Below, in pieces: positions 3,684-62,622 of a DNA stretch of 64,000 nucleotides. A model generated the notes under the pieces. It searched no databases. It was not told the origin of the DNA and worked only from the letters and a program-made list of their open reading frames with translations. Every line of letters begins with the position of its first letter. The first letter of the stretch is position 1. The stretch is from Anadara kagoshimensis. Taxonomy: Eukaryota; Mollusca; Bivalvia; Arcoida; Arcidae. The stretch is taken from the NCBI GenBank assembly GCA_021292105.1, contig CM037869.1, forward strand, positions 36,769,835 to 36,833,834. The letters run 5' to 3'. A program made the translations under genes and the position numbers.

Positions 3684-5105
3684 TTATCCGATAAGCTTTT
3701 TAGCATAACAGTTTCTATGATAGGTCGGGCAGGTTGGAAGAAAATTCGTTATATAGGACTGGATATTGGTTTCTATAGTTGAACATTCACCAAGAAAAGT
3801 CAAATCCATTGTGTTGTCTTGTATCCAGTGGTCAATCCATTTAATGTCGCAGTTACATTCGACTTTAGTACCCGTGAAGTCTATCAGTGCACGATCCTGT
3901 TTGATTCCCCCAACAGCGCATGGTATATCTGTCAAATTTGTATTCCCGATATACAGCGCTCTAAGTCTAAATAAATACGCAAACACGTCTCTATTCAAAT
4001 ATAAAATTGGATTGTCGTTAAGCCAGAGCACTTCTAAATTATCCAGACCACTTAAATCATTTCTCTCCAAACTGTGGATATTGTTTCCCGAGAGATCAAG
4101 AAACCGCAAAGACGACATTGCATGCAAGGAACCGGGGATTCGCGATATGTTGGAGTTTCTCATCGATAAGGAGGTTACGGATTTTATATTTTTCGCCGAT
4201 TGGTCGCTGACAAATTCTAAATCATTTCCTGAAACGTCGAGGTTTTTAAGTTTTTCAAAATACAAAAGGCTTTCCGGGAGAGTATGAGCATTGTCGTCTT
4301 GTAAGGAAACATTTGCCAAATAAGGCAAAAGTCCAGAAATTGCAGGAATACGAAGACCAACATCACCAACTTTGGTGTTGTGATCAAAGTTCAATGTGTC
4401 GAGAAACGTCAGTCTGCCTATTGCTAGAGGAATGGATACTAAGTTGGTTTTTTGAATCACAAGTTGTCTCAACGTTCCTTCGAAACCATAAAAAGCCCTT
4501 TCAGGAAGAATAAAAAACGACCCTTCACTAACATTTAATTTTTTCAACATTTGCAAATGTTTCAGATGCTGAGGCCACGTGGACAATCTTGGATGCCCAA
4601 TAGTCAATTCCTCAAGTGTGTCCCCGAGTGACCTAAAGACATCCTCAGTAAATTGCGATTCAGGAATCGGATTACCGGAAATGTCTAAAGATTGTAAAAC
4701 CTCCAAATCGGATATGATTTCGGAAGGAATTACAGTCAATCCGTTATTCGCCAAGTTGAGAGCTTTAACATTCTTCTTCAATGTGTCAGTGAGAAAAACC
4801 TTCGTGTTTGTAACGCTAATTGTCAATTTATTATTGGGAATACTCAATTCTGTGATGTTAAGATTATGAAACGTGTTGTCATTAAGTGTTATAGTACTGT
4901 TGCTAATCTCAAGAGTCTTGTATTTTGTGTTTGGGTTGAATGGCCTGATCTGGCTTAGTCCTCTGCATAGAACCTTTTCATCCACACATCCACAGGATCC
5001 AGCCGATCCACTAATCGCCCATGGCGGTGTACATGTATGTCCAATGTTCAAACTTGCACCTTGTGTTCCAATAATAATGTTCCCAACCAGCAACACCAGG
5101 AATAT
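3684..5105 (-). CDS. LRR1: secreted leucine-rich-repeat protein, main exon
   Basis: This single large exon encodes 473 residues. On the minus strand the acceptor is TTAATTAATTTTAG at 5106, and the exon opens with a hydrophobic signal segment (IFLVLLVGNIIIGTQG). No in-frame ATG serves the signal peptide, so the start lies in an upstream exon; the best candidate is 6011-6022 (MDIK), giving about 477 residues. An N-terminal cap follows (CTPP..GSCGCVDEKVLC), then about 14 LRRs with the family motifs NTNLVSIPL and FDHNTKVGD, then a C-terminal cap (CNCDIKW...C...C). A short tail, YHRNCYAKKLIG, adds one extra cysteine. With no membrane segment or GPI-like tail the product should be extracellular. 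The ligand is unknown. Closest in layout to LRR2/LRR7. Confidence 0.88.
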   Translation of the reverse strand: MFLVLLVGNIIIGTQGASLNIGHTCTPPWAISGSAGSCGCVDEKVLCRGLSQIRPFNPNTKYKTLEISNSTITLNDNTFHNLNITELSIPNNKLTISVTNTKVFLTDTLKKNVKALNLANNGLTVIPSEIISDLEVLQSLDISGNPIPESQFTEDVFRSLGDTLEELTIGHPRLSTWPQHLKHLQMLKKLNVSEGSFFILPERAFYGFEGTLRQLVIQKTNLVSIPLAIGRLTFLDTLNFDHNTKVGDVGLRIPAISGLLPYLANVSLQDDNAHTLPESLLYFEKLKNLDVSGNDLEFVSDQSAKNIKSVTSLSMRNSNISRIPGSLHAMSSLRFLDLSGNNIHSLERNDLSGLDNLEVLWLNDNPILYLNRDVFAYLFRLRALYIGNTNLTDIPCAVGGIKQDRALIDFTGTKVECNCDIKWIDHWIQDNTMDLTFLGECSTIETNIQSYITNFLPTCPTYHRNCYAKKLIG

Positions 5106-8745: not shown

Positions 8746-9290
8746 AGAAAACGGATATTTTTAAAACGGTTACAAATTTAAGTGTTTCTGTAAAATTTTA
8801 AAATGACAATAAATTAATGTATAATACTGACGTACCAAATACAAATACGTTAACTAAGCCGAATACTTCAAATTGTGTGGCAAACAGTGTCCAAATTACA
8901 CAAGCATCGCTCGGACCAAAACCGACAATACTTTATAAAATTAACCATAGCAAAGCTCACGAGGTAACAAACTAATCTCGTGCTTAATCTTATTTTACAT
9001 TGCACAGTTGGTAGTGAGCTCTATCCGTATGTTAGATAACAGGATTTGACGGAAACTTTAGCACACATATATGTTGTCTCCTATGTTGCAAACTACACGC
9101 AGAATGAAGAAAAAAAGTCAAAAGTCCTTTAAACGATGTCTTGAGTCATAGTAGACGTGTCATCAAACTAAAAGCACTCCCTCATATTGCCTTGAGAGTA
9201 ATCAACTTCAACTTTCAACTTCGTATTATTGTCAGAAATATACTATAATTGTCTAAATTTCCTGCAAGTTAAAAATTGAAATTTCTCAAA
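8746..9290. other. AT-rich intergenic, nothing recognised
   Basis: No reading frame, tRNA or repeat seen. Confidence 0.4.
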
Positions 9291-9490
9291 AACTAAGGTA
9301 TACTCCCTCATGCAAAGTATTTCCTTAGCTTATTTGGTAAAATATATTTTGGTCCTTTGGGTAGCTATTCAACATCTTCAAAATAATTTCGGTTGCATAA
9401 ATTTGGTCCAAGCACTACTGATGAGGAATTGTATTCCGAAACGGCCGTCTAGTGCTGTAAAATTAAAACTGGTATAATATGTAATTATGT
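9290..9490 (+). mobile_element. Hammerhead-bearing repeat, solitary copy
   Basis: The roughly 110 bp upstream of the ribozyme (GTATTTCCTTAGCTTATTTG, AAATATATTTTGGTC) and about 25 bp downstream (GTGCTGTAAAATTAAAACTG) match the flanks of the minus-strand ribozymes near 20128-20386 and, downstream only, 16275 and 40231. So this is a repeat family and not a lone motif. No reverse transcriptase is present. It resembles non-autonomous hammerhead retroelements (retrozymes), which depend on enzymes supplied elsewhere. Confidence 0.7.
9412..9455 (+). ncRNA. Hammerhead self-cleaving ribozyme (consensus-perfect core)
   Basis: Read as RNA, the strands pair as follows. Stem I is GCACUA (9412-9417) with UAGUGC (9450-9455), six perfect pairs extendable by A-U at 9411/9456. 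The core CUGAUGA (9418-9424) follows. Stem II is GGAAU-UGU-AUUCC (9425-9437). Then comes GAAA (9438-9441), a two-pair stem III closed by a GGCC loop (9442-9447 plus the A-U pair), and the cleavage triplet GUC, with the predicted cut after C9449. All invariant catalytic positions of the hammerhead family are present. A very short stem III is known in animal and Penelope-associated hammerheads, which may work as dimers. The GGCC loop is self-complementary, which would suit dimerisation. Confidence 0.9.
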
Positions 9491-12808: not shown

Positions 12809-14191
12809 TTATGGGCATAACGGTAAAGTGTTTTGAATATAATCGTTAATGGATGAAACTATGGTTTCACATTCTCCTCTAATGTCAAGAGTTTTGTGGT
12901 GAGAAGTCTTCCAGGTCAGTAGCCATTTCAGTTCACATGTACATTCGATTTGATCACCGGTAAGATCTAACGTTATGTGCGTAGCGCTCAAATCTCGGAT
13001 TGCAGTTGGAATCTGTTTTATCTCCGTGTTGCGTAGATCAATAACGTTTAGGCTGGAATGTAAACCGGAAAAGGCGTACGGAGAAACATACAGGATAGGA
13101 TTAAAACTGACGTTCAACATCTGTAAGTTTGTTAGATTTGCTAAGTCATTTTGTTCAATTCCATGAATCGTGTTATTTGACATGTCAAGTTTCTGCATTG
13201 ACGTCATAAACTGTAGCGCTCCAGGTATTCGATTAATACCAGAGTTCCTCAAGCTAAGAAAGGTAACTCTTGATACGGTCTTTGCCGACAGATCACTTAC
13301 GAAATTCAACGCGTTGGCATCTAAATTTAGATTTTTCAGATGGTCAAATTTCCCCAATATCAACGGGAACACGTTAATTCCGTCATCGCGCAATGATGCG
13401 TTTTGTAGGAAAGGTAAAAGTCCGGTTACCAGAGGTACGTTCATACCTGCATCCCCAACTTGTTTATTGTGGTCAAAGTGCAATGTGTCCAGAAAATTGA
13501 GAGTAACTACAGCTAAAGGTACAGAGACTAAATTAGTATTTTGGATGGTCAATTTCCGTAAAGTACCCTCGAATCCATAAAATGCTCGTTGTGGTATGGT
13601 ATTAAAAGCTGCGCCGTCGACCTCCAAAACTTTCAGCATCTGCAAATGTTTCATAGTGGCAGGCCATTTTGATAATTCTATTTTATTACCAAAATGAAAT
13701 TCCAATAATGTTTTTCCTATGTGTCGCATTACTTCTTCATCATACGAATCAAAATCCATCGGGTTATCGACAACATTTAGCCTTTCTATCTTCGTAAGGT
13801 CTAGTAAGGCGTTTGGAAGTTTAGACAAGTAATTCTGTGCTAGGTTTAAAGTTTTTAGTTTATCTTTCAAAGGTTCAAACGCATGGTCGTTCATGTATGA
13901 ATTGCGGAGATTATTACCATGTAAATCTAGTTGTTCAACATCTAAGCCGTTAAAGGAATTATTATTCAGAGATGTAATAGTACTGCCTGTTATTTCTACT
14001 CTGAAATAACGTCGTGTTCCGACAAATGACGGTAACCCAACTAGTTGTGAACAGTGCACTATGTCATCGATACAGCTACATCGCCCGGAACCAGTATGTC
14101 CTGGTGGGGTACATGTACTCGCCGCCCGTTTCATTGGATGCCCAGTTACCCCTATAACATCCATCGTAAGGAGGACCGCCAGCAGAAGAAA
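12809..14191 (-). CDS. LRR2: secreted leucine-rich-repeat protein, main exon
   Basis: The exon encodes 460 residues and begins after the acceptor TTGTTCTATTATTCACAG. Joined to MFQ from 15306-15314 it gives 463 residues starting with a clear signal peptide (MFQ-FLLLAVLLTMDVIGVTG). Next come the N-terminal cap CTPPGHTGSGRCSCIDDIVHC, about 14 LRRs, and a C-terminal cap with CTCELKWLLTW and two further cysteines. The protein ends at the last cap cysteine (TLPLCP), with no anchor, so it should be secreted. Family hallmarks are FEGTLRKLTIQNTNLVSVPL and FDHNKQVGDAG, the latter in an over-long repeat 8. It is head-to-head with LRR3. Its duplicate LRR7 differs at about 34 residues, mostly near the N-terminus. 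Confidence 0.92.
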   Translation of the reverse strand, partial: FLLLAVLLTMDVIGVTGHPMKRAASTCTPPGHTGSGRCSCIDDIVHCSQLVGLPSFVGTRRYFRVEITGSTITSLNNNSFNGLDVEQLDLHGNNLRNSYMNDHAFEPLKDKLKTLNLAQNYLSKLPNALLDLTKIERLNVVDNPMDFDSYDEEVMRHIGKTLLEFHFGNKIELSKWPATMKHLQMLKVLEVDGAAFNTIPQRAFYGFEGTLRKLTIQNTNLVSVPLAVVTLNFLDTLHFDHNKQVGDAGMNVPLVTGLLPFLQNASLRDDGINVFPLILGKFDHLKNLNLDANALNFVSDLSAKTVSRVTFLSLRNSGINRIPGALQFMTSMQKLDMSNNTIHGIEQNDLANLTNLQMLNVSFNPILYVSPYAFSGLHSSLNVIDLRNTEIKQIPTAIRDLSATHITLDLTGDQIECTCELKWLLTWKTSHHKTLDIRGECETIVSSINDYIQNTLPLCP

Positions 14192-14889
14192 CTGTGAATA
14201 ATAGAACAAAGTAATTTGTACATCAAAGCATGTACTTATCGTCAAGAACAGGCAATATGTTTATACAGGAAAAATTACAAGTCCAACAATGAATTCAAAA
14301 CTTGAATTTTTGGAAAGATTCTTTATCTTTACCCAAGATTTAGTTCAATGTTTTCAAAATTCAATGAAAACTTAAAATGTAGCTGAAATATATGTACTTA
14401 ACAATTGATTAGCAAACTAAACCACGATGCTACAAATAAACGTACACACGTGTATAAAACACGTTTTCATCACGAAAGATACGGGAATAAAAATGAATAC
14501 TCATTATTTCAGCCGGGTCTAATTGATAGACAACGACAGACAAAAAAAAAAAACCAAGCTTCAACTTTTGGTAAAGAAAACGAACGAAAAAATCTTGAAG
14601 TAAATTTAATTTATTAAGTGAAACAATTCAAAAAATAATAATAAATAAATTCATAAAGATAGATATATGAAAAACAATAAACACGAGTTGAATGGAAAAA
14701 TCCAAGATTATTTTGCATGTAACGAAGCGGAACCATTTTTGGGATTGATAGTTGAGACTACAATTTACTAAGAAGACTGAAAATTTCAAAGAATCATTTG
14801 AATCATTTTGAATCAAAATGAGATTCAAATCTAGGTGAAAGATGGCTTTTTGACCCGTAAATCCGTATAACATTTGGGAAAATACATTA

Positions 14890-15760: not shown

Positions 15761-16274
15761 TTTAAATTTTTATGACATGCGCAATATTACTGTAATGATT
15801 CTGATGAATAAACATATACACTGCCATGGCAACCTTGGTGTTTAGTGTTATACATGCAGACCTAGTGTGAATTCAGAATCAAAGGTACATTTTTGAATAA
15901 CGATGGTTGATGATCGTTAGACCGAAAGAATTATTTAGATTGATTTTTTTTCTAATTAAAAAATAAACGTACTTATTAATTTTCAGATTCATTATATTTT
16001 GATAAAATACTTTTCTTGCTCTTTATATTAATCTTTTTCTCAGAAGAAAAACATAGTATTGTTGTTAGATAATCATTGTTTATAAAAATTCATGCTTACT
16101 GAATCCTCAAATAACTAATTACTAGTATAATTAATCGTTCAAAGAATAAGTTAGCTATAGTTAATTGTTCAAAAAGTTTTCTTAGGTAGATTTGGAAACA
16201 TAAATTTTGGTTCTTCAGGTTTTTTTTTCATTTCAACACCTAAAATTGTTTGGATTTTCACAATTTCGGTCCGA

Positions 16275-16317
16275 GCACTAATGATAATGAATTGTATTCC
16301 GAAATGGTCATTAAGTG
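16275..16317 (+). ncRNA. Decayed hammerhead ribozyme relic
   Basis: Aligns with the intact ribozyme at 9412 over its whole length, including GCACTA and ATTGTATTCCGAAA, and over the downstream TTGCAAAATTAAA. The catalytic core no longer fits the consensus, so it is presumed inactive. Confidence 0.65.
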
Positions 16318-16517
16318 TTGCAAAATTAAAAAAAAATTTTATTGATAATTTTTAACAAACACAGACATGCACAAAAATATCTTTTTAAACACTATTTAGA
16401 TTTACTTGCAATATTAACCAAAATTGTGGAAATTTTAAGGTTTAGAAATCACAAAAAAATGTAAATTATATGGTTATGAGCATACATAAGTTTATCAGAG
16501 ATAACTTGTAATATTAG

Positions 16518-16895: not shown

Positions 16896-17039
16896 ATTTC
16901 ATCCAGGAGTCAATCAGTTAATAAGAACAAATATTATCTGTTTGCTCATCGCAATTTTACTACTTATATATATTTTTTTAAATATTAAATTTAAGACCAT
17001 TATTATATTGCATTATAACTTAATTGTTTTAATTTGAAA

Positions 17040-17087
17040 CCCTAGACGGCCGTTTTGCAATAATATAATTCATCAGCAATGTGTGTG
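17040..17087 (-). ncRNA. Decayed hammerhead ribozyme relic, reverse
   Basis: The minus strand retains GCTGATGA and ACGGCCGTCTAGGG in ribozyme order, but stem II and the adjoining core no longer fit. It is opposite in orientation to the relic at 16275. Confidence 0.55.
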
Positions 17088-17271
17088 AACCAATTTTTAA
17101 ATTTTTACAAACAAACCTTTAACCTTTAACGTATTCGAAAAAAAGTTATCGTCTTTTTTCAACATAATAAACGTTATGAAATCTTCAATACCTATATATA
17201 ATTAAAAAATTCAGAATAACCCTTGCAAGAAAAATATATTTGAGACAAAAAATATCACACATACACCATAC

Positions 17272-18110: not shown

Positions 18111-18451
18111 GAATTAATATATACGTTTTGCTTGAATTCATGTTTTTGCATACATTATATGTTGATCATAGTGTTTAAAAGTTAGTTTGTTTGTGGAGGA
18201 TGACCTTTTCTAGGTGGATTTATTCTACCAATCAAGCAATGGCGACATCTTCTAAAACTGAAATGAAATAACTGTGATGGCTAAGCCTTTTCTTCTATCC
18301 CATTCATGTAATTTTTTATCTCTTGTGCGATCACATGCTTTTTCAGTCCTAATGTGTTTAACGTTTTTCACTATTTTTGCGTTTTCTGATGTTATCTTTT
18401 TAAATTGTCTTAATCTGCAGAAAAATAACTTCTACATATTATTTTTTGCAG

Positions 18452-19900
18452 ATATTATGCATCTATCTTATTGGTCTTGCCAATTATACAAAGGCAGAGA
18501 ACTGTAATCCAATTACACTTTCGGGTACATTATGCAGTTGTACAGCTAACGTAATTTCCTGTGAAAACCGAGGTCTTCATGCTGTTCCAACTTTTCCCCA
18601 ACCGGTATCTGCTGATATATTGAATTTGATGAGGAATGATATACATAATCTTACAACAGACATCTTCAAGAATGTAAGGGTTAAAATAATAAACCTTAGC
18701 GGAAACAAAATAAACAAAATACAAAGTGGGGCATTCAATAACGTAAAAGATAATTTGATTGAACTTATTCTGAAAGATAATGCATTAACGAAACTTCCTG
18801 AAGAAATTTCTAACCTGGGTAAGATACAGTCGTTAGATGTCCGCGGAAATCCGATTGAGGACCCAAATTTTACAGATTCAGTGATGTATCAAATCGGAGA
18901 TTCCATCACCGATTTCAAGTTCGGCAGTGCTGAACTTGATAAATGGCCACAAAGTTTAAGCCATTTTCAAGAGTTAAACTCGTTAATGTTGGATACAACT
19001 TCGTCTAGCATGCAAGTAATACCAGCCGAAGCTTTCCATTCGTTTGAAACCACCCTTACCCAGATGACAATTCAGAATACTGAGCTACTAGTGGTTCCCA
19101 TCGGCGTCAGTACCCTACGTAACCTTAAAACTTTCCATTTTGATCACAACCACAAGGTTGGTGATAAAGGCGTGCTACTACAGTCATTTGTTAATCAACA
19201 CTCAAGTCTTCAAACACTTTCCCTCATTGATGATAGGTTAACAAAATTTCCAAGAGTTCTAAGATACCTGTCAAGCTTAAAGAATCTGACAATGGACCAG
19301 AATACACTTGCCTTTGTAAATGACGAGGCAATCGGATTACTTGGCAATGTAAAAATTCTCTCCCTGAAGAACTGTTCTCTTGACAGGGTACCCGGAGCGT
19401 TATCCAATCTAGTAGGACTGACAAATCTTGATTTGTCGGACAACAAGATTGCAAGCATAGAGAGGAATGATATGGAACAACTGACTCTTTTGGAGAAAAT
19501 TTATTTTAATAATAATCCACTGACATATGTATCCAACGAGACCTTTAGAGATTTACACTCCCTGGAAACCCTGGACTTGTCAAATACCAAAATTACACTT
19601 GTCCCTGAAGCCATACGTAATGTATATCGTTATCGAAACCACTGTTTGATAAACCTCATCATCTTGGAAAACAAGTTGGACTGTATGTGTGAACTGGTAT
19701 GGCTCAAGGAACTTAAAACATCATGTCCAGCAATGAACATAAAAGGCAATTGTGACACGATTCATGTGAACCTAGAACAGTATATTCACGATTTTGTTCC
19801 ACGATGTCCCGCATGGATGCTGAAGCAGAATCAGGCCATTTACCCGTATTATTTACCAGGCAGAAAGCGGAGATCCATTAGAACATTTTACAAGAAATGA
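18452..19900 (+). CDS. LRR3: secreted leucine-rich-repeat protein, main exon
   Basis: The exon starts after acceptor ATTTTTTGCAG and encodes 482 residues, or 487 with MVLKL. After the signal peptide comes an N-terminal cap (CNPITLSGTLCSCTANVISC). Fourteen LRRs follow; repeats 4 and 8 are long, and the latter carries FDHNHKVGDKG. The C-terminal cap is CMCELVW...C...C. Potential N-glycosylation sites include NLT, NFT and NET. Unlike its neighbours it has a basic tail after the cap, ending LPGRKRRSIRTFYKK, in which RKRR fits a furin-type cleavage site. There is no membrane segment, so it should be secreted. It forms a head-to-head pair with LRR2. Its duplicate LRR8 differs at about 13 residues. 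Confidence 0.93.
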   Translation: MLCIYLIGLANYTKAENCNPITLSGTLCSCTANVISCENRGLHAVPTFPQPVSADILNLMRNDIHNLTTDIFKNVRVKIINLSGNKINKIQSGAFNNVKDNLIELILKDNALTKLPEEISNLGKIQSLDVRGNPIEDPNFTDSVMYQIGDSITDFKFGSAELDKWPQSLSHFQELNSLMLDTTSSSMQVIPAEAFHSFETTLTQMTIQNTELLVVPIGVSTLRNLKTFHFDHNHKVGDKGVLLQSFVNQHSSLQTLSLIDDRLTKFPRVLRYLSSLKNLTMDQNTLAFVNDEAIGLLGNVKILSLKNCSLDRVPGALSNLVGLTNLDLSDNKIASIERNDMEQLTLLEKIYFNNNPLTYVSNETFRDLHSLETLDLSNTKITLVPEAIRNVYRYRNHCLINLIILENKLDCMCELVWLKELKTSCPAMNIKGNCDTIHVNLEQYIHDFVPRCPAWMLKQNQAIYPYYLPGRKRRSIRTFYKK

Positions 19901-20062: not shown

Positions 20063-20127
20063 ACCTTTATATTATATTTTGCTGTTTTGTTTACTTTACT
20101 TTACTTAATATACAAGTGTTCTTTTAC

Positions 20128-20173
20128 AGCACTAGACTACCATTTCGCAACACAATTTCTCATCAGTAGTACT
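20128..20173 (-). ncRNA. Hammerhead ribozyme, core intact, downstream member of a tandem pair
   Basis: On the minus strand AGUACUA pairs with UAGUGCU (stem I, seven pairs with one wobble). CUGAUGAG, a weaker stem II with a UGU loop, GAAA, a two-pair stem III with a GGUA loop and the GUC cleavage triplet are all present. All catalytic positions are kept. It lies just past the LRR3 polyadenylation signal in antisense orientation. An identical copy is at 58370-58415. Confidence 0.8.
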
Positions 20174-20346
20174 TAGACCAAAATTGTGAAACCAAAATTT
20201 ATTTAAGTGTCCAAAAGACCAAAATACATATTGAACCAAATTAAGCTTAGCAAATACTGCTTGAATGAAGTTTTCTTAGATCTTAACTAGCATCAAATGT
20301 AGACAATAGTATTTCATACTATACCAGTGTTCATTTTACAGCACCA
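20135..20346 (-). mobile_element. Hammerhead-bounded monomer of about 212 nt (retrozyme-like)
   Basis: The predicted cleavage sites of two same-strand hammerheads are 212 nt apart. The interior (ACACTGGTATAGTATG..., AGCAGTATTTGCTAAGC, ATATGTATTTTGGTC) matches both flanks of the solitary ribozyme at 9412, as expected for a head-to-tail dimer of one repeat. In known animal retrozymes such dimers are transcribed and self-cleave to small circular RNAs. The upstream ribozyme is now degraded, so this copy probably no longer does so. Confidence 0.6.
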
Positions 20347-20386
20347 GACGGCCGTTTCGGAATACTATTTCTAGTTAAGTAGTGCT
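20341..20386 (-). ncRNA. Decayed hammerhead ribozyme, upstream member of a tandem pair
   Basis: Stem I halves, AGTATTCCGAAAC and GGCCGTC remain in order, but the first core block no longer matches the consensus. Together with 20128-20173 it brackets the 212-nt monomer. Confidence 0.7.
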
Positions 20387-21314
20387 TCGACCATAGAATA
20401 TTGGATGACTTCTACTGTGAAAGTTTAAGATCAATCGATTTTTTTATCTTTTCTTTTTTGATATTACTCCATTGTTGTGTCGGATTCTTGATAACGAAAG
20501 TTTTTGTTTTTCAACATCATACGTTTTTGAAGAATACGGAAGAATATAAACGTCGATTTTAGTTTTGTTTTTCAAATCCTACCGTTTGTTCTTTTAGTCA
20601 TTCATAACGTGATCTAATCTGCACCTGAAAATGTACTTTCCAACAGGAACACGACACAACACAAGTAATTGAGAGTCAAACAAGACAAGCACAAAATCCC
20701 AATTTCAGACAGGTTCTCGAATACATGTCCAGTGACTTGACTACAGCAATATTTTTGGATCTTAACAATATTTATAGGTGTCAGTATTTTCCCAACATTT
20801 TATTTACAGTTAGAATTTACAAATTCAGTCAACCATGTCAAGATTTAAACGCGCATACTTATCCACAAAACTTGTTACTCAAAAATTAAGAGTTGCGACA
20901 CGTGGGATGGATAAGTGTTGAAAGCCCACGCCAAGATTTCACTTCTGACAAGGTGGTCAATTTTGTGACCGTACAGTAACCGGAGCTGTCTAGATAAAAG
21001 ATGCTAAATTTACCATTTGGGATTTGCCTTTATTAATTAAGGCTAGTCGAACCTAGCCGGGACTATGACCATTCGTCAACTTAGCCTAGGCCTCACAACA
21101 TCAGCATCAAATGAAAAAACGCATTTATGGGCTATCAATATATCCAAGTTAAGAGTCGACATTTATTTGTAAGCAGTTAGCTTTGTTTCTGTCATGGGAA
21201 CAAGCTCTGCTATAGTGTTATTGGCTGTGAAACAACTACACCTAAAGCAGGAGAAGCAGGTATGTTGTTGCAAAGAAAAGGAAAAAAATTCAATAGAATA
21301 TCAAAAACAAATAT

Positions 21315-23505: not shown

Positions 23506-23700
23506 AATAATTCAAAGCCTTCTTGCCGTCAACTGAAAGTCACGTATATCAAGTGATTGTGTATCGATTCTTCTGAAATGTATCTGTGCTTCCAGCAGGT
23601 TATTATTCCGATAGATTTGAGCTATAAATTCAATTTTATTATTGCAGCACACGAAATGTCTATTGTGGTAACTTAGTACTTAACCTGTTCTAATGTTGCG

Positions 23701-23745
23701 GCAGTAAACGACAGTTTCGGAATCAAATTCCCTATTAGTAGTGCT
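23701..23745 (-). ncRNA. Decayed hammerhead ribozyme relic
   Basis: The minus strand keeps AGCACTACT, GGGAATTTGATTCC and GAAAC in order with the usual flank TTTTTGGTTCA. The core is degraded. The counterpart is at 62404-62448. Confidence 0.6.
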
Positions 23746-23919
23746 TGAACCAAAAATGTGGATATTCAATTTCTTTTAAGATGTTAAATTCTTAGATTAA
23801 GATGTAACAATTTGAGCTTTACCAAATGCATAAATGCACTTTGCGCCAAATTGAAGACTTTATTATGGCGGTCGAAATCAATACCTCTAATCAAACCAGA
23901 TATGATGAAAGTTTTCTCT

Positions 23920-27273: not shown

Positions 27274-28661
27274 TTAGCCAATAATAGGAATTGTTGTTGA
27301 AGAATTATAATCTGGACAATGAACCACAAAATTGTCAAGATAATGTCTGATATTTGAGAATATTGTAGCACAGTTTCCAAGTATCTGACCATTTCTTAAG
27401 GGCGTTTTATCAACTCGAATCTTGAACTGCACTAGATCACATGTACATTCAATATTGTCGTTCTCTAAGTTAAGGTATTTCAGATTCAGAACGTTCTTAA
27501 GCGCATTCGGTATGGTTTGTATGCGAGTATTGGAGAGGTCGATGGATGTAAGATTAAAAAGGTTTGATAATGCACTGTCAGAAACATATTGAAGATTTTT
27601 ATTTCCAGCAAGAGACAGAGTTTGCAGGCTGTGGAGATTCTGCAGGTCATTTCTGTCAAAACTTTTGATGTTGTTGTAGGACAAATCAAGTAATTGTAGA
27701 TGTTGAAGGTTTCCGTTCCGTCCGGTTATAGCTCCGGGAATTCTGTCCAGGGAACAGTTGACAAGTCTCAGATTATGTATTTTGCTGTTGTTGATAAACT
27801 TAACAGCTTCATCGCTGATAACAAGTAGCTTATTATCATCCAAACTCAGATCGTTCAACTCGACCAAAGGTTCAAGTACAAATGGGAATCTATTTAAATT
27901 GTTATCTCTAAGGCTTAGTGTACGAAGCTTTGAAAGTCCCACAAACGATTGCTCTATAATGCCATTATCGCCAGCGTTAATGTTATGATCAAAATGGAAT
28001 TCAACCAGTCTTGGAAGATGAGATAATCCGAGCGGTACGGTCGTCATTTGAGTGTTTTGTATTGTCAAATTTGTAAGCGTGGTTTCAAAAGAATGAAATG
28101 AATTTTGTGGAAGGTAAAAAATAAATGCTCCATCTAATTCTAAGTTAGTCAAACGTGGAAAATGGCTAATTCCCGAGGGCCATTTTTGAAGAGCCGTTAA
28201 GTGACCGAAAGAAAACTTTTTAAGTGTATCACCAATCGCTCTAGTAACCGAATCCGAAAAACCGCTTGCAGGGATGGGATTGTCTCTGACATCCAATGAA
28301 GAAAGAACATTCAAATAGCGGAAAGCAGTCGGCAATGATGCTATCGTATTATGACTGATGTCAAGACCTTCTAATTTGTCCTCCAAGCCTCTAAATGCAT
28401 GGTCGTCAATATAAAATATACTGTTGTTGCTGATCAAAATCTCTTTACAAAGAAATTTGCTAAGGCGTCTGATGATATTATTGAAATTTGGTTGTTGCTT
28501 AGGTCCAGCTTATCATAGTTATATAATTTAAAAGATTGTGGAACAATGGTCAGTCCTTGACCGTTGCAGTTTATCTCCTTGTTGGCACAATGGCAGCTTG
28601 CTGGGCATTGAGCAGATGTACTTGCTAACAAAAGTGTTAGGAAAATTAGTAAGCTTGACAA
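27274..28661 (-). pseudogene. LRR4: secreted leucine-rich-repeat gene with one frameshift
   Basis: The main exon starts after acceptor TTTTTTCTCTTGCAG with signal segment LSSLLIFLTLLLASTSA and a classic N-terminal cap CPASCHCANKEINC. A frame break lies at about 28440-28450: compared with LRR5 (GVKEILLSNN), one G appears missing in GTAAAGAGATTTTG. Downstream, 27274-28437 is open for 387 residues. It covers the remaining LRRs, the NTQMTTVPL and FDHNINAGD hallmarks, a C-terminal cap (CTCDLVQFK...C...C) and the tail YNSSTTIPIIG. Everything else is clean, so it is either a very young pseudogene or a sequence error; if the base were present the protein would be about 463 residues. It is head-to-head with LRR5, its closest relative here. 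Confidence 0.85.
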
Positions 28662-28769: not shown

Positions 28770-30100
28770 AAAACAAACACGACAAAATAGAAGTTATTGA
28801 AAGAAACAGCAATACGTTACAAGGAAACACCCGACACATATATACTATATAAGAAAAAACACTCACAGGGAAGAAATATTCGCCACTTTCACGGCGATTT
28901 TTGAACTGCGGATATGGCAAAATCATAGTCAGTTTGGTAATTTGCATGGCGGCCATATTGGATTCATGATATGGTTAAAATACAAATGACTTTATATAGA
29001 CCAGTGATGATAAATTGGTCCTGTACAAGTTTTCTCACAAGTAGAAAAAAAATTGCTGATACATACTTTGACTGTACACCGCCTGATATTGTTTGGGTGG
29101 ATCAACATAAATTTACTTAATTAAAAGACCGGCCTTTCCAAATTAAAAATCCGAAGCGTGTTATCATTGAATTCTCATTATAAAACATGTTAATTTAATT
29201 CAAAATCTACATTTTCTGCGAATTCGAAGCACAATTTTAATTCTAATACTAAAGATCTTACTCGATTTGCTGATGACGCAAGTGACCACGGAAATTCTTC
29301 AACTAGAATATAATGTCCTTCTCCCGTGAAGACTTGACAATTTTCGGCCCGGGTAAGTTAAAAAATGGATAATTTGCGTGACCGGCATCACGTTTGAATG
29401 GCGGCGCGTTCAAAACTTTGCTCATGAATATTAATGAATCACGGTCACGTGATTGTTAGCTCATGAATAAATTGATCACCATTGTGCCATATGGAATATG
29501 TCCTCTCGGAAAACTTTCTTATTTTTCCTTGTATACTTTCCCTACAGTCAAAACCGTTTAATTTCTCACCGCAAAATAGTTTAGAAGATCAAATCTGCGA
29601 ATGTTTTCTACTGCTAGAGTTTTTTCTTGTAAAGTAAAGAGACAAATTCCAACTTATTAGGTATAAGTATGTATAGCAATATATATAAATATAAGAACAA
29701 ATAACACTGAATTTTGAATCAACACATGTTGAATTTTATTGCAAAATTGTCATCTAATGCTTTAAAATTTAAACATGTTTAGTAATAAATAAATAATAAT
29801 GAATTACAGTAGTATTTTTTCTTGATGACAGAATTTTGTATTTTGCATGGTTTGAATTGACACCCCACGTAACCAATGTATAAATGTATATTTTAACATC
29901 AAATGTCAAACTAACTTTTTGACTACTGTTTCGAGTCATGTGACAACAAAAACAAAACAAAAAAGTACAGATAATAATTTTTACGATATCTCTTATGAAT
30001 GTCACGTGGACGTTTCTGTATATGTAAAATACAGGTAGCTCGTTACCTAGAACACAAATATATTCTATTTCAAAACTTATTTCATTTTTTTATTTCTTAC
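28770..30100. other. LRR4 intron region, nothing else recognised
   Basis: The proposed intron (28662-30104) is mostly AT-rich. The stretch 29270-29470 is GC-richer, with GGCCCGGG and two CTCATGAAT repeats. A segment at 29508-29560 (TCTCGGAAAACTTTCTTATT...CTTGTATACTTTCCCTACAGTC) recurs at 31622-31675 upstream of LRR5. No separate gene was seen. Confidence 0.4.
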
Positions 30101-32349: not shown

Positions 32350-33910
32350 TCCATTGTTGTTGGTTTTGTTTTTTATTTACCAGTTTGACCCAAAGCAAAA
32401 CAATTAAATGCAAATGAGTTCGATTATAAATAAAAAATTATTTAATGTTTTTATTCATTTTATTTATTTACTTTATTTTCTTAATTGATTAATTAATTTA
32501 TTTATTTATTTGTTTGCTTTTTAGAAATTAAGAAAATATCAATAAATAATAATAATAATCATAATAAAATCCACTCAATCAAAAATAAACAAACCCATGT
32601 CATTACTCAACTAGGGAAAAACAAAACGATACAAATGATGTCTTAATTTCAACTTTAATATAAATATGATGTATAATTTCTAAGGGAAGATGAATTGAAG
32701 CATAAATCAAATTATTGTTAAGATCTAATAATATGTCATCCTATTGGTTTAGAAACCGACAAACATATGCAAAAAATAAATAAATATTAAATATTAAAAC
32801 TTGACACCGGGAAAAAATTAATACCCAAATTGCAATTGACCGGAGATTTGATGTTAATTATTATAGTTAAGGACTTTTTAGTGGGTGTATATTTTCCGAC
32901 GTTGACTAGAAAAATAAATATTGACTCGAGTGATATTATTCAACAAAATATACAGTAAACTTAAAACATTATTATATAACGTAAATATTACTAGATTTGT
33001 TTTAACTTTGCACAACACTGCCGTTTCAGAACAAGTATTATCTGGGGTTTTTTTGGTAGGAGAATCATCTGTTAAACTGGCCACACCGGTAACATGTTAA
33101 AAATTCGGATAAATAGCCAAAATTGTCAAAGCGTTATTACAATCGTTGAACGTAGAATTTAATAAAGTTTGGGAAAGATTGTACATTTCAGATGATGTAA
33201 TTTATGATACTTACACTTTTAAAATTGTGTTTATGCCCCGTAATCCATAATAAATTGAAAGTTATTTCTTATATTTACGATATTTACCGTTTATATTCTT
33301 GCTTAGAATTTACAGAATATCAATTGTTTATTTTGAAAAATACTGCTTTTTATTCATTTCCACTTGTTTTGTGAGTGAAAGAACGGGGCCATTCATCCTT
33401 TAAGAGCAATCTAGCTTGGGGAGAGATTGACAAGGCAATCTTATTTGTGGTTTTCAATAAGTTTATGTAAAACTAAACACCATTGATTTTAAATAATTTA
33501 TTAAATAAAACATATTTAAGTTTTAGAGAGTATATTAGAAAAAACCACCCGACTTTTTTTTTATTTATCTAAACGTATAGTTTAAACAATACTTACAAGA
33601 CATTAATTAAAGAAACTCAGAAAGGAAATCTTGTTTTTTTAGTTTCTTTTGAAATTTTACAAGTATCGTCTATGCGTGTGACAATAATATCTTACCGTCA
33701 TTTAATAGATTATAATGTGTGAAGTCAAACAAGAGTAAACAGTAGGGTAAACATGTAACTTACTTGTGTAATCTTAAACTCCAGATTCAGTGTTTCTAGG
33801 TTTAATATTAGCGAGGCCATTTCTTACCTTTTGAGGGGGTACCGGTAAGGTAGGAATCTCCAAACCCCTCGGAAGAAGATGATTATATATTAATATACCC
33901 TACAATAAAT
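32350..33910. other. LRR5 intron, AT-rich, nothing else recognised
   Basis: Long ATT/TAA-rich stretches and no coding or repeat signal that could be supported. Confidence 0.4.
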
Positions 33911-34055: not shown

Positions 34056-34301
34056 TTACATAGCATCTTGAAGTTGTTCTTTAAATGAAATATAAATTTG
34101 TTTTCCCTGAAAAAGTTCTCTTATTAAACATATCGAGTGATTCATTTCAACGTTTAATCGTGCAAAGAATTTGTTTTTACTGGTGTTGTTTTGTTCGATT
34201 TTCAAACAAATGAGTATGATGCGCTTAGGATAATGAACAGAGTGTTGTTATTTAAAAGAACATTGCAAAATTTAACTTCATTTGGTTTTTTTCCTTTTCA
34301 G

Positions 34302-35678
34302 ATGTTTCCTGTACTATTTACCATTTCCCTTCTATTAGCGAGCTCGTATGCCCAGTGTCCATCAGTTTGCCAGTGCGCAAACAGGGAAATAAACTGCAAT
34401 GGTCTAAGACTGACCAGTGTTCCATCAACCTTACAACTATATAATTTTGATAAGCTGGATTTAAGTAATAACCAGCTTACAGTCATTGGACCAGATGCTT
34501 TTGCTCCGTTTGGTGTTAAAGAAATTTTACTCAGCAACAACTTTATAACTTATATGAACGAAACTGCCTTTAGAGGACTAGAAGACATCATTGAAAAGCT
34601 TGATATTAGCAATAATCGGCTTACGTCGTTATTGCCTGCGTTCAGCCACTTAAATACATTATATTTCCTAGACGTTAGCGGTAATCCTATTCCAGACAGG
34701 GGTTTTACAGATTCAATCATGAGGGCGATTGGCAATACGCTAACAAAATTTGTCTTTGGACATCAACAAGTTCTTACAAGATGGCCTACAAGTACAAGCC
34801 ATTTTCCACGTTTGACTGACTTAGAATTAAATGGAGCGGTCATCAATTACCTTCCACAAAATTCCTTCCATTCTTTTGAAAGCACGCTTACAAACTTGAC
34901 AATAAAAAACACGAAAATGGCGACCGTACCGCTCGGTTTATCTCGCCTTCCAAGACTGGTTGAATTCCATTTTGATCACAACCACGAATCTGGCGATTAT
35001 GGTATCATAGAACAATCGTTTGTTGGACTTTCAAAGCTTCGTACATTGAGTCTTCGAGATAACAATTTAAATAGATTCCCATTCGTACTTAAACCTTTGG
35101 TCGAGTTGAACGATCTGAGTTTGGATGATAATAGACTTCTCGTTATCAGCGACGAAGCTGTCAAGTTTATCAACAACAGCAAAATACACAATCTGAGACT
35201 TGTCAACTGTTCCCTAGACAGAATTCCCGGAGCTATAACCGGACGGAACGGAAACCTTCAACATCTACAATTACTCGATTTCTCTAAAAATAACATCAAA
35301 AGTCTTGACAGGAGTGACCTGCAGAATCTCCACAGCCTCCAAACTCTGTCTCTTGCTGGAAATAAAGAACTTCAATACGTATCTGACAGCGCGTTATCAA
35401 ACCTGCCAAACCTTGAAAGGATCGATCTCTCGGACACACATCTTCAAACCGTACCGGATGCGCTTAAAAACATTCCAAGATTGAATTACCTTAACCTTCA
35501 AAACGACGACATTGAATGCACTTGTGATCTTGTAGATTTTAAAATTCGAGTCGATTCGACACCATTAGGAAATGGTGAGATACTGGGGAACTGTGCTACA
35601 ATTTTTTCAAACATTCGAAATTATATCGATAGATTTGTTGTCAATTGTCCAGAGTATATAAGGAAACATGGCCGTTAA
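34302..35678 (+). CDS. LRR5: secreted leucine-rich-repeat protein, main exon
   Basis: The exon begins after acceptor TTTTTCCTTTTCAG with MFPVLFTISLLLASSYAQ, a strong signal peptide, so the open frame upstream to 34191 is judged intronic. It encodes 458 residues (459 with the upstream Met). The N-terminal cap CPSVCQCANREINC is of the classic type. About 14 LRRs follow with IKNTKMATVPLGL and FDHNHESGDYG. The C-terminal cap is CTCDLVDFK...C...C, and the protein ends YIRKHGR with no anchor. It is predicted secreted with unknown ligand. A central stretch of over 120 residues is almost identical to LRR4, whereas both flanks are clearly more diverged. Confidence 0.93.
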   Translation: MFPVLFTISLLLASSYAQCPSVCQCANREINCNGLRLTSVPSTLQLYNFDKLDLSNNQLTVIGPDAFAPFGVKEILLSNNFITYMNETAFRGLEDIIEKLDISNNRLTSLLPAFSHLNTLYFLDVSGNPIPDRGFTDSIMRAIGNTLTKFVFGHQQVLTRWPTSTSHFPRLTDLELNGAVINYLPQNSFHSFESTLTNLTIKNTKMATVPLGLSRLPRLVEFHFDHNHESGDYGIIEQSFVGLSKLRTLSLRDNNLNRFPFVLKPLVELNDLSLDDNRLLVISDEAVKFINNSKIHNLRLVNCSLDRIPGAITGRNGNLQHLQLLDFSKNNIKSLDRSDLQNLHSLQTLSLAGNKELQYVSDSALSNLPNLERIDLSDTHLQTVPDALKNIPRLNYLNLQNDDIECTCDLVDFKIRVDSTPLGNGEILGNCATIFSNIRNYIDRFVVNCPEYIRKHGR

Positions 35679-37310: not shown

Positions 37311-38004
37311 TCATTAGATCAGCATAGTAAGCCCCAGTGATTGAGATTTCAGTAGGTTTATAATTGTTTAACAGAACATCCTTAGAATCCTAAAACACAG
37401 TGGTCATGACTTTGCCAGCTGATGGTTGGGTTTTGAATTTCTTTGGTGGGGGTGAGCCAGGGTGCTTCCATTGCATTGACTCTTTTTTGGTTTCTGGGTC
37501 CCAATGATGTATCCATGTTTCATCACCAGTTACTAAACGTAAATGGAAGTTTTCCGGGTTATCATTATAAATGCCAAGAAGCTCCCGACTTGGATGGAGT
37601 CTTTGGAAGCGATTCTGCACATTAAGGTTTCTGGGGACCCATCTTGCGGATACTTTTGACATCCCAAGATTCTCGTTAATAACCTTGTATACACTTCCAT
37701 GTGAAATGTCACACTCCCTAGCTATGTCATCAATCCTAATTCGACGATCATTCATGATGAGGGTCTCCACAGACGTGACAATTTCCTTTGTGATGGCATC
37801 AGCTGGTCGACCTGACCGTGGGTCATCCATCGGTGAGGTGCGCCCACGTTTAAATTCAGCTGACATTTTTGCCACTGTGGAATAGGCAGGACCACTGTCA
37901 CCGTACACCTCGGTCATTCGCCGGTGAGTTTCTTTGGCATTTGATCCCTATACTGTGAGGAACTTTATTACTGCCCTAAACTCAACATTTTGATTTTCCA
38001 TCAT
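37300..38004 (-). pseudogene. mariner-type transposase, 5' half, inactivated
   Basis: The minus strand reads MMENQNVEFRAVIKFL at 38004. It continues through a helix-turn-helix region (RPADAITKEIVTSVETL, DISHGSVYKVINENLG), the mariner signatures WVPRNL and VTGDETWIHHWDPETKKESM, and GAYYADLM near 37310. Two in-frame TAG codons interrupt it, at codon 19 and after VMTTVF (37387-37389). The C-terminal half, with the second and third catalytic Asp residues, is absent where the minisatellite begins. The minus-strand leader up to about 38180 probably belongs to the element. As a plain mariner remnant it cannot make an active transposase. Confidence 0.92.
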
Positions 38005-40043: not shown

Positions 40044-40230
40044 TTAATGTATTGACTAGTCCATTGTTTGGTATAATATGTTCTTTGTAATATTGAAATG
40101 TAGTGATGGACAGGCCACTGGTTTCAAAACACCTAAAATCACAAATGTTCGTGTGAGGTTTAACTTGGTATAATAAATTTAAGTCTCAATTTTTCTCATT
40201 TGGATTTCCACTATGTCGGTACCAGCATTA

Positions 40231-40275
40231 GTACTACTGATGAGGACTTTTATTCCCAAACGGTCGTCTAGTGCT
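40231..40275 (+). ncRNA. Decayed hammerhead ribozyme relic
   Basis: Retains GTACTA, CTGATGAG, the stem II position and the GTCGTCTAGTGC end with downstream GCAAAATTAAAACAG. The second core block is no longer consensus, so activity is unlikely. Confidence 0.7.
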
Positions 40276-40359
40276 GCAAAATTAAAACAGATTTTATGGT
40301 AAATTCATCTATTTTCATAAACACTTCATAGTTCATAAACAACGCTTTATTTGACTTGG

Positions 40360-41098: not shown

Positions 41099-41410
41099 TC
41101 CCTGTTTTCTTAGTTGCAATAAGCTGTTTATACACGCGTGTCTTTATAAGCTGTAGGACAAGGAAAATGAATTAACGAAAATTAAGGAAAATGAACCCAA
41201 TTTTCTTTTAGATTTAGGAAATTTCTAGAAACATTTTTTTAAGTTTCAACTTTAATTTGCTTTGGGGTTGTGATTCAAACTTGGGCTGTATGCTTATGTT
41301 AGATTACGTACACTTAAGCTATCTACAAAGGGTATTCAATAGAATCTTCTAACGAATTTCTTACTTTAACGTTGCATCAATAATTAAATAATTGTCGATA
41401 TCTATTTCAG

Positions 41411-54050: not shown

Positions 54051-54524
54051 AAATTTTTATGACATGCGCAATATTACTGTAATGATTCTGATGAATAAAC
54101 ATATACTCTGCCATGGCAACCTTGGTGTTTAGTGTTATACATGCAGACCCAGTGTGAATTCAGAATCAAAGGTACATTTTTTAATAACGATGGTTGAAGA
54201 TCGTTAGACCGAAAGAATTATTTAGATTGATTTTTTTCTAATTAAAAAATAAACGTACTTATTAAATTTCAGATTCATTATGTTTTGATAAAATACTTTT
54301 CTTGCTCTTTATATTAATCGTTTACCCAGAACAAAAATAGATAATCATTGTTTATAAAAAATTACATGCTAATTGAGTTTAAAAAATTCCTCAAATAACT
54401 AATTACTAGTATAATTAATCGTTCAAAGAGTTGTCTTAGGTATGTTTGGAAACATCAATTTTGGTTCTTCATTTTTTTCATTTTAACACCTAAAATTATT
54501 TGGATTTTCACAATTTCGATCCGA

Positions 54525-54567
54525 GCACTAATGATAATGAATTGTATTCCGAAATGGTCATTAAGTG
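54525..54567 (+). ncRNA. Decayed hammerhead ribozyme relic
   Basis: Counterpart of 16275-16317, degraded in the same way, so the decay predates the duplication. Confidence 0.62.
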
Positions 54568-54767
54568 TTGCAAAATTAAATAAAGATTTTATTGATAATT
54601 TTTAACAAACATAGACATGTACAAAAATATCTTTTTAAACACTATTTAGATTTACTTGCAATATTAACCAAAATTGTGGAAATTTTAAGGTTTAGAAATC
54701 ACAAAAACAATGTAAGTAATATGGTTATGAGCATACATAAGTTTATCAGAGATAACTTGTTATATTA

Positions 54768-55145: not shown

Positions 55146-55287
55146 CATCCAGGAGTCAATCAGTTAATAAGAACAAATATTATCTGTTTGCTCATCGCAA
55201 TTTTACTACTTATATATATTTTTTTTAAATATTAACTTTAAGACCATTATTATATTGCATTATAACTTAATTGTTTTAATTTGAAAC

Positions 55288-55334
55288 CCTAGACGGCCGT
55301 TTTGCAATAATATAATTCATCAGCAATGTGTGTG
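55288..55334 (-). ncRNA. Decayed hammerhead ribozyme relic, reverse
   Basis: Counterpart of 17040-17087. Confidence 0.52.
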
Positions 55335-55902
55335 AACCAATTATTTAAATGTTTACAAACAAACCTTTTAACCTTTAACGTATTCGAAAAAAGTTATCGT
55401 CTTTTTTCAACATAATAAACTTTATGAAATCTTCAATATCTATATATAATTAAAAAATTCAGAATAACCCTTGCAAGAAAAATATATTTGAGACAAAAAA
55501 TATCACACATACACCATACACGTACAGTCAAACTCGTCTATAAAGGACACTTTTACCTGTTCTCTTGGGTGACTTTTATTGACAGGTTTGACTGAACGTG
55601 GTCGGTAGCCTTTATATAAAGGTTAAATATATGAATAAAGAACAATTAAAATTGTGATACGATTCTACTGTCTTTTTTAAGCAGGCGGCCCTGATACAGA
55701 GATGGGCTTTAAGGCAGGTTATAATGTGCATTCGTAAACCACGTGAACGTAGAATAGAAAAAAATGATGAAACGGGATGTGTTAGACAATGCGCGTCTGG
55801 TAAAGAAAATCTCCAATGTTTACACAGTGAATACTGCTGTTGTTGTGAAATCCCTGAGATAAAAAGATCTATTTACAACAGAATATTTACGGTATTAAAC
55901 TG

Positions 55903-58309: not shown

Positions 58310-58369
58310 ACCTTTATATTATATTTTGCTGTTTTGTTTACTTTACTTAATATACAAGTGTTCTTTTAC

Positions 58370-58415
58370 AGCACTAGACTACCATTTCGCAACACAATTT
58401 CTCATCAGTAGTACT
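58370..58415 (-). ncRNA. Hammerhead ribozyme, core intact
   Basis: Identical to 20128-20173, including CUGAUGAG, GAAA and the GUC triplet. Antisense, just downstream of LRR8. Confidence 0.8.
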
Positions 58416-58599
58416 TAGACCAAAATTGTGAAACTAAAATTTATTTCAATGGTTAAAAAATGTCCAAAAGACCAAAATACATATTGAACCAAATTAAGCT
58501 TAGGAAATACTGCTTGAATGAAGTTTTCTTAGATCTTAACTAGCATCAAATGTAGACAATAGTATTTCATACTATACCAGTGTTCATTTTACAGCAGCA
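58377..58599 (-). mobile_element. Hammerhead-bounded monomer of about 223 nt
   Basis: Counterpart of 20135-20346. The two predicted cleavage sites are 223 nt apart because of a short internal length difference near 58450. Confidence 0.58.
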
Positions 58600-58639
58600 G
58601 ACGGCCGTTTCGGAATACTATTTCTAGTTAAGTAGTGCT
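58594..58639 (-). ncRNA. Decayed hammerhead ribozyme, upstream member
   Basis: Counterpart of 20341-20386. Confidence 0.65.
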
Positions 58640-59479
58640 TGGACCATAGAATGTTGGATGACTTCTACTGTGAAAGTTTAAGATCAATCGATTTCTTTAT
58701 CTTTTCTTTTTTGATATTACTTCATTGTTGTGTCGTATTCTTGATAACGAAAGTTTTTGTTTTTCAACATCATACGTTTTTGAAGAATACAGAAGAATAT
58801 AAAAAGGTCGATTTTAGTTTTGTTTTTCAAATCCTACCGTTTGTTAGTTTATTCATAACGTGATCTAATCTGCACCTGAAAAATGTACTTTCCAACAAGA
58901 ACACGACACAACACAAGGTATTGAAAGTCAAACAAGACAAGCACAAAAAATCTCAGTTTCAAACAGGTACTCGAATACATGTCCAGTGACTTGACTACAG
59001 CAATATTTTCGGACCTTAACAATGTTTATAGGAGTCAGTATTTTCCCAACATTTTATATACATTTAGAGTTTACAAATTCAGTCAACCATGTCAAGATTT
59101 AAACGCGCATACTTGTCCACAAGAAACTTGTAACTCTAAAATTAAGAGTACCAACACATGGGATGGATAAGTGTTGAGAGTCCAAGCCAAGATTCTTTCA
59201 CTTGTAAAAAGGTGGTCAATTTTGTGACCGTACAGCAACCGGAGTTGTCTAGATTAAAAATGCTACATTGACCATCTGGGATTTGCCTTTATTGAATTAA
59301 AGCTGGTGAAACCTAGCCGGGACTATGACCATTCGTCCACTTAGCCTAGGCCTCAAGACATCAGCATCAAACATAAAAAAACATGAAAACAAGCTCTGCT
59401 ATAGCGTTATTGGCTGTGAAACATTTATACCTATAGCAGGAGAAGCATGCTGTTGCAAAGAAAAGGAAAACATTACAAT

Positions 59480-62205: not shown

Positions 62206-62403
62206 ATTAAATAACTCAAAGCCTTCTTGCCGTCAACTGAAAGTCACGTATATCAAGTGATTGTGTATCGATTCTTCTGAAATGTATCTGTGCTTTCAGC
62301 AGGTTATTATTCCGATAGATTTGAGTATAAATTCAATTTTATTATTGCAGCACACGAAATGTCTATTGTGGTAACTTAGTACTTAACCTGTTCTAATTTT
62401 GCG

Positions 62404-62448
62404 GCAGTAAACGACAGTTTCGGAATCAAATTCCCTATTAGTAGTGCT
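62404..62448 (-). ncRNA. Decayed hammerhead ribozyme relic
   Basis: Counterpart of 23701-23745. Confidence 0.58.
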
Positions 62449-62622
62449 TGAACCAAAAATGTGGATATTCAATTTCTTTTAAGATGTTAAATTCTTAGAT
62501 TAAGATGTAACAATTTGTGTTTTACCAAATGCATAAACGCACTTTGCGCCCAATTGAAGACTTTATTATGGCGGTCGAAATCAATACCTCCAATCAAACC
62601 AGATATGATGAAAGTTTTCTCT

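Follow-up and report, generated by a model that had tools for sequence, protein, structure and literature searches.

A minimal type I hammerhead within a dispersed 339-bp retrozyme-like repeat family of Anadara kagoshimensis

Hammerhead retroelements and the 339-bp unit

The non-LTR retrozymes of animals, described from Acropora, Mytilus and axolotl, are low-GC tandem repeats of ~170-400 nt that carry type I hammerheads, possess no LTR and reach thousands of copies (PMC7229834). In mussels the repeats are reported to measure 350-390 bp and to contain ~5000 hammerheads, in which most nucleotides of the loop-loop contact are missing (PMC7229834). Retrozymes are reported to be one source of circular RNA made by ribozymes in animals; the enzyme that inserts them is left open in these accounts (PMC7229834, PMC7761336). 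The retrozyme authors already named Penelope-like elements (PLEs) as a strong candidate driver (PMC7229834), and a 2020 review by the same group states that no motif in metazoan retrozymes points to their driver (PMC7761336). According to this review, many animal genomes contain thousands of minimal type I hammerheads (PMC7761336), and a stand-alone motif such as that at 9412-9455 of the DNA studied here is therefore ordinary. PLEs are described as having a 30-40 bp tail and a tandem or partial-tandem arrangement (PMC11167929). Reverse transcription of a PLE from Anolis is reported to start inside its own RNA, with a preference for 5'-ATT-3' (PMC11167929). In vitro, this element was inserted without need for ribozyme cleavage and no reads ended at the cleavage site (PMC11167929), results which speak against the ribozyme being indispensable.

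The DNA analysed here (the window, 64,000 nucleotides; G000:C13:36769835-36833834) belongs to an assembly of 1.115 Gb in 36 contigs. Comparison with the genomic unit by blastn revealed a 5'-truncated monomer of a 339-bp retrozyme-like unit at 9217..9481 of the forward strand. This stretch corresponds to unit positions 72-337 and is 94.4% identical to the unit at G000:C1:310270-310608, the first of an array of 5.0 head-to-tail units of 339 bp (98% matching). An initial annotation, made from the letters of the window, had reported a ribozyme at 9412-9455. The ribozyme itself was retained; since 9217-9481 aligns to the unit, it is the ribozyme of a 5'-truncated element, and the repeating unit is not 44 nt but 339 bp, of which 265 bp are present here. 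The unit has a GC content of 34%, its longest stop-free run comprises 83 codons (in three joined units), and no reverse transcriptase or GIY-YIG frame was found in the 339 bp. Among the 114 open reading frames of at least 70 aa in the window, 20 were chosen outside the leucine-rich-repeat (LRR) genes for a domain test, and these 20 contained no reverse-transcriptase or GIY-YIG domain near the window copies. Another eight window frames were assigned to LRR (6), mariner (1) or nothing (1).

The spread of the family was assessed with the pattern CTGATGAN{6,20}GAAAN{4,10}GTC on both strands of the genome, using the reversed pattern as control. The pattern matched 11,281 times (5,681 + 5,600), whereas the control matched 1,098 times (728 + 370). 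Matches averaged one per 100 kb across the genome, and there were 0 matches each in viral contigs and in prokaryote contigs. The earlier description was right in seeing a mobile, dispersed family with affinity to animal retrozymes and PLEs. The position beside an LRR cluster, which had been offered as a new detail should the species be unstudied, is incidental, given that the pattern is found throughout the genome. A head-to-tail array of near-identical units would also suit a satellite DNA in which the hammerhead is a passenger and which spreads through rolling-circle DNA or unequal exchange. We regard this as highly improbable in view of the genome-wide density of matches and of the young copies described below, whose length of 0.8-5 units, ragged 5' ends and fixed 3' ends are as expected of reverse transcription.

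The family resembles the animal retrozymes in its 339-bp tandem units with one type I hammerhead each, in having no LTR and in its thousands of copies. It differs from them in its minimal hammerhead variant with a palindromic stem III and in the fixed 3' end described here; RNA circles, which are reported for animal retrozymes, are a prediction for this family. With the LTR retrozymes of plants it would share a non-autonomous way of life as a hammerhead retroelement and the circular-RNA model, whereas the plant elements carry type III hammerheads inside their LTRs (PMC7229834).

The hammerhead at 9.4 kb and its relatives in the window

A minimal type I hammerhead, examined by descriptor, Rfam alignment and fold energies, lies at 9411..9456 (+), with predicted cleavage after C9449. 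All invariant nucleotides listed in the initial annotation are present in the stretch it gave, namely CTGATGA (9418-9424), GAAA (9438-9441) and GTC (9447-9449), and the copy shows zero departures from C3 U4 G5 A6 N7 G8 A9, G12 A13 A14, A15.1-U16.1 and H17. Its stem II of 5 bp, closed by a 3-nt loop, and its stem III of 2 bp with GGCC, which together make the 8-nt palindrome ACGGCCGT, agree with the earlier description, whereas stem I is a perfect, open-ended helix of 7 bp (9411-9417 pairing with 9450-9456) and not of 6 bp. In the descriptor the three helices measure 7, 5 and 2-4 bp. Contacts between loop 1 and loop 2 are absent from this hammerhead, and stem I has no internal loop. A reading frame running through the ribozyme into the tail was noticed by eye.

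A strict type I descriptor (core plus at least 5, 4 and 2 pairs in stems I, II and III, both strands) gave a single match in the window, 9411-9456(+), and matched 0/500 dinucleotide shuffles. When one mismatch in stem II was allowed, the descriptor also accepted the 20.1-kb copy together with its 58.4-kb duplicate; a looser hammerhead pattern matched five times against 0.40 expected. The Rfam model Hammerhead_1 (RF00163) aligned end to end on 111 nt with 28.1 bits (E 1.7e-5), below its curated gathering cut-off of 34 bits; a scan of the whole window with E up to 5 listed no hammerhead, and the copies at 20.1 and 40.2 kb scored 14.8 and 15.9 bits. A sub-threshold Rfam score had been named in the initial annotation as speaking against the motif, and formally this is the score obtained. 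The hammerhead is nevertheless judged real because the shuffle test and the genome-wide family outweigh the score. It is predicted to self-cut.

Fold energies ignore tertiary contacts and are for this reason only a hint. The monomeric hammerhead of the 9.4-kb copy reached -7.8 kcal/mol, and the monomer MFE structure (-12.3) mispairs the core. The dimeric hammerhead, joined via the stem III palindrome, reached -34.5 kcal/mol and equals the dimer MFE. For the majority sequence of the window family the dimeric hammerhead (-26.2) is not the MFE structure (-32.9); the dimeric hammerhead of the 20.1-kb copy is unstable (+4.2). The term textbook hammerhead used earlier was thus overstated: the motif is a minimal type I form with no internal loop in stem I and a score under the Rfam cut-off, and the term is further weakened by the prediction of the correct fold for the dimer rather than for the monomer.

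An iterative profile search of the window identified 13 copies, ten of which form five segmental-duplicate pairs. A model built from these 13 recovers them by construction and adds a weak 14th remnant at 32998..33067 (-) (33.0 kb; 18.6 bits, E 0.048). The relatives announced earlier at 16275, 17040, 20128, 20341, 23701 and 40231 all exist. Their claimed duplicates in a second segment were found for five of the six (at 54.5, 55.3, 58.4, 58.6 and 62.4 kb); neither the 40.2-kb copy nor the 9.4-kb copy has one. The core is fully intact in three of the 13 copies, at 9.4 kb, at 20.1 kb and in the 58.4-kb duplicate of the latter, so that the claim of a mobile family stands with the qualification that 10/13 window copies carry core changes. 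The other window copies are old, mostly with a broken core. The copy at 16166..16341 (+) is changed at C3 and G8 and is duplicated at 54420..54589 (+). In the copy at 17016..17113 (-), CTGATGA is present but shifted in the alignment and G12 is changed; its duplicate lies at 55263..55361 (-) and shows a weak match (65%) to a second unit. At 20 kb two hammerheads of the same orientation lie ~213 bp apart. The first, at 20311..20395 (-), has a one-base insertion and changes at G5 and G8, and the second, at 20101..20268 (-), has an intact core and one mismatch in stem II; their duplicates lie at 58564..58648 (-) and 58343..58521 (-), respectively. A 213-bp unit at 20.1-20.4 kb was an early model that was dropped, the genomic unit being 339 bp. 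The copy at 23681..23850 (-) is changed at G5, G8 and A9 and is duplicated at 62384..62553 (-), that at 40145..40294 (+) has G12 as its sole core change, and a remnant at 29715..29778 (+) has lost the 5' part of the core. On a larger scale, parts of the region from 11.8 to 24.7 kb are found again at 49.8-63.4 kb with 92-94% identity.

Across the 13 window copies the named pairs were kept in 87.2% of cells, compared with 84.4% in shuffles (4/500 reach the observed value). There were five doubly changed cells (2/500 shuffles) and three doubly changed pairs (32/500). The double change seen most often, from C-G to U-A in stem III, falls on two CpG steps and may, to judge by this position, reflect CpG decay; it is not counted as proof of selection for this reason. 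Likeness among the four long copies (9.4, 16, 58.4 and 62.4 kb) is 76% for the hammerhead and 59% for the part upstream of it (permutation p 0.003), a contrast that looser alignment upstream can exaggerate.

Changes were also counted in 55 young copies from 25 loci of the genome; units of an array are not independent, hence no p-value is given. Private changes, defined as alleles seen at most twice, amounted to 30/2,424 positions (1.24%) in the ribozyme and 80/8,869 (0.90%) in unit 63-258, and by this measure the ribozyme is no more conserved. This pattern is as expected of copies decaying after insertion. When all changes were counted, the ribozyme had 36/2,424 (1.49%), unit 63-258 had 248/8,869 (2.80%), the tail 34/1,350 (2.52%) and the 5' hairpin 49/2,265 (2.16%); fewer total changes in the ribozyme are as expected if source copies keep it. 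A look-alike or dead motif, with no copy able to cleave, would agree with the Rfam score under gathering, with the misfolded monomer MFE and with private changes that are not rarer in the hammerhead of young copies. It is disfavoured by the absence of matches in the 500 shuffles, by the genome-wide excess of the pattern, by the greater likeness of the hammerhead in the four long copies and by its fewer changes once shared ones are counted, and we consider it very unlikely.

Ends of the young copies and the proposed mode of copying

For a survey of element ends, unit 70-250, which lies upstream of the ribozyme, served as query, and the copies were not selected for an intact ribozyme. Of 980 candidates, 40 were scored and yielded 41 matches, of which 30 were fetched; five overlapping views were dropped, leaving 25 loci. 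Taking the best-scoring first, the survey favours young, long copies, and pieces of at least 93% identity were used; the 25 loci are not all independent, L039 and L040 having common flanks. In 23 of the 25 young loci the 3' end lies at unit 336-339; as cleavage is predicted after unit 304, this is ~33 nt beyond the cut. The 5' starts are ragged, from unit 1 to unit 293. The loci are 0.80 to 5.0 units long and 15/25 are longer than 1.1 units; an internal break interrupts the array in L055. The loci L046:1021-2059 and L047:343-1713 differ from the other 23: both arrays (3.06 and 4.04 units) begin at unit 269 and stop inside the ribozyme, at 290 and 283, respectively, and they have a common 5' flank.

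In the 9.4-kb copy, the end survey and blastn place the tail, from the predicted cleavage site to the fixed 3' end, at 9450..9481 (+). It is followed at the 3' junction by TAATT (9482..9486, +), a motif common to most tail ends, which may belong to the target or form the final bases of the element. By hand-reading, ATT or NAATT was found next to 19/23 fixed ends (in another register in L035), the exceptions being L038, L049, L053 and L055. Moreover, among the tail ends with a match to GTATA[AG]TATG (fetched loci plus window, with next-unit junctions left out), AATT comes directly after 29 of 46, compared with a background of 1.3% for AATT in the window. The tandem junctions read GAATTTAAACC or TAATTTAAACC, the base preceding AATT varying there too, and the next unit itself starts ATTTAAACC. 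Since the tandem junctions carry the same AATT and the next unit begins in this way, AATT may be encoded by the element, as the last bases copied from RNA, rather than by the target. For this reason the resemblance to the preference for ATT of the PLE from Anolis carries little weight, and AATT was dropped as proof of a target preference.

Target-site duplications beyond chance were not found around seven window copies, and there was no general duplication around 26 elements (the 25 loci and the 9.4-kb copy). Shared flank words that are rare in random pairs occurred in L029 (TTATATA, 0.03) and in L042 and L057 (TATGGAATT, 0.01 and 0.00, respectively), and were rejected as duplications given 26 tests. 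The tail of an older copy immediately precedes L038 and L042, and a short tail-like piece precedes L057; the word TATGGAATT is this older tail or tail-like piece on the 5' side.

A linear monomer cut at both ends (305 to 304) is excluded as a one-pass template because 23 ends pass the cleavage site, whereas a circle or an uncleaved multimer fits copies of 1.1-5 units with a partial first unit. The 9.4-kb element is probably an animal retrozyme of the non-autonomous kind, for which circular or multimeric RNA served as template and which was perhaps copied by Penelope-type machinery. Cleavage, dimer action, circularity and a PLE as driver, which we infer from the features above, would be connected as follows. 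Transcripts of tandem copies would self-cleave, probably as dimeric hammerheads joined via the palindromic stem III. The monomers would be circularised, or uncleaved multimers would be used as template. A trans-acting reverse transcriptase, most likely that of a PLE, would then start at a fixed place ~33 nt past the cleavage site and run for up to several units, halting at the ragged 5' ends.

Folded as a circle, the unit has 63% of its bases paired and is no stabler than shuffles (z -0.54; 57/200 shuffles equally stable), and its MFE structure mispairs the hammerhead core. The 5' part of the unit, positions 5-66 (L009:1275-1336), forms a predicted hairpin of -19.3 kcal/mol, with 23/500 shuffles as stable. 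This modelled hairpin could serve as a protein-binding or start element.

Penelope-like elements of the genome and other features of the window

A genome search for GIY-YIG, in which 150 of 248 candidates were scored, gave at least 50 matches, and 20 loci were read. Five open frames were tested. Those of L077 and L065 contain RVT_1 above the Pfam cut-off and that of L072 below it, each beside GIY-YIG, and those of L064 and L068 contain GIY-YIG alone. In 13 of the 20 loci, a sense-strand string CTGANGA...GAAAG[CT][AG]CTA occurs 51-114 nt past the frame. The first base of this string is changed in L072, and a comparable string in L076 carries a core change. The descriptor accepts the downstream motif in only two of the 20 PLE loci, L077 and L078, which belong to one family; the remaining strings have doubtful stems II, judged by eye. 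A different hammerhead-like string lies ~960 nt past the frame in L064, L065 and L066. Most of the 13 strings have the palindromic stem III AGCGCU, and their letters are unlike those of the 339-bp unit. The nine loci read further past the frame are TA-rich there, and the TA-rich run opens with AATT in L067, L073 and L076. No PLE with the unit's own hammerhead was found among the 20 loci read (of at least 50). Family sequence occurs near three of the 20 (L063, L074 and L077), always outside the PLE frame, with antisense copies ~1.1 kb downstream of the frame in L063 and L077. In L074, a 29-bp repeat fragment (L074:2198-2224; unit 295-323, 93%) lies ~430 nt downstream of the GIY-YIG frame in the same sense.

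The family resembles PLEs in its minimal hammerhead, in the suggested dimer action, in a 33-nt tail compared with 30-40 bp in PLEs, in its partial tandems and in the reverse transcription proposed to start inside the RNA. Unlike PLEs, the unit has no reverse transcriptase or GIY-YIG, and the letters of its hammerhead and tail differ from those of the PLEs read in this genome. The repeat could in principle derive from an autonomous PLE, as its 3' end or pseudo-LTR surviving in truncated copies; the unit would then be a deletion derivative and not an independent retrozyme. Minimal hammerheads are described as the PLE type (PMC7761336), the tail and the partial-tandem layout match those reported for PLEs (PMC11167929), and the genome has PLE-like frames followed by hammerhead-like strings. 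This origin is nonetheless unlikely, as 339-bp units follow one another head to tail and contain no long frame, and as family sequence accompanies only 3/20 GIY-YIG loci, each time outside the frame. On the favoured reading, the element is an ordinary but well-resolved animal retrozyme with a PLE-like minimal hammerhead. We propose only tentatively, and with some doubt, that animal retrozymes are mobilised by Penelope-type machinery, with the fixed tail, AATT and partial tandems as the signature linking a retrozyme to its driver. Being young and of high copy number, with a sharp 3' end and partial tandems, the family makes it possible to test both the suspected role of PLEs as drivers and a target-primed model with a circular template. 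Taken as a whole, the initial observation was confirmed and its interpretation is partly supported.

Other features were observed in the window. Long LRR open reading frames form a cluster at 3684-5105, 12809-14260, 18404-19900, 27274-28509, 34158-35678, 41384-42775, 50725-52173 and 56651-58147, where the assignment refers to domain tests of six of the eight. An 86-bp unit is repeated 28 times in tandem at 44763-47158; it is richer in GC than the DNA around it and contains GGTTCGAATCC, which we take to resemble a tRNA B box; no tRNA was detected in this tandem by ARAGORN, nor by Rfam in its first 228 bases. A near-perfect inverted repeat with arms of ~45 nt at 1743-1891, which gave an Rfam match to MIR5649 below the cut-off, looks like a small inverted-repeat transposon. 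A fragment of a Mos1-like mariner transposase lies at 37390-37947(-). Finally, a 69-bp tandem repeat of 6.3 copies at 237-668 is mostly open as a 23-residue protein repeat.
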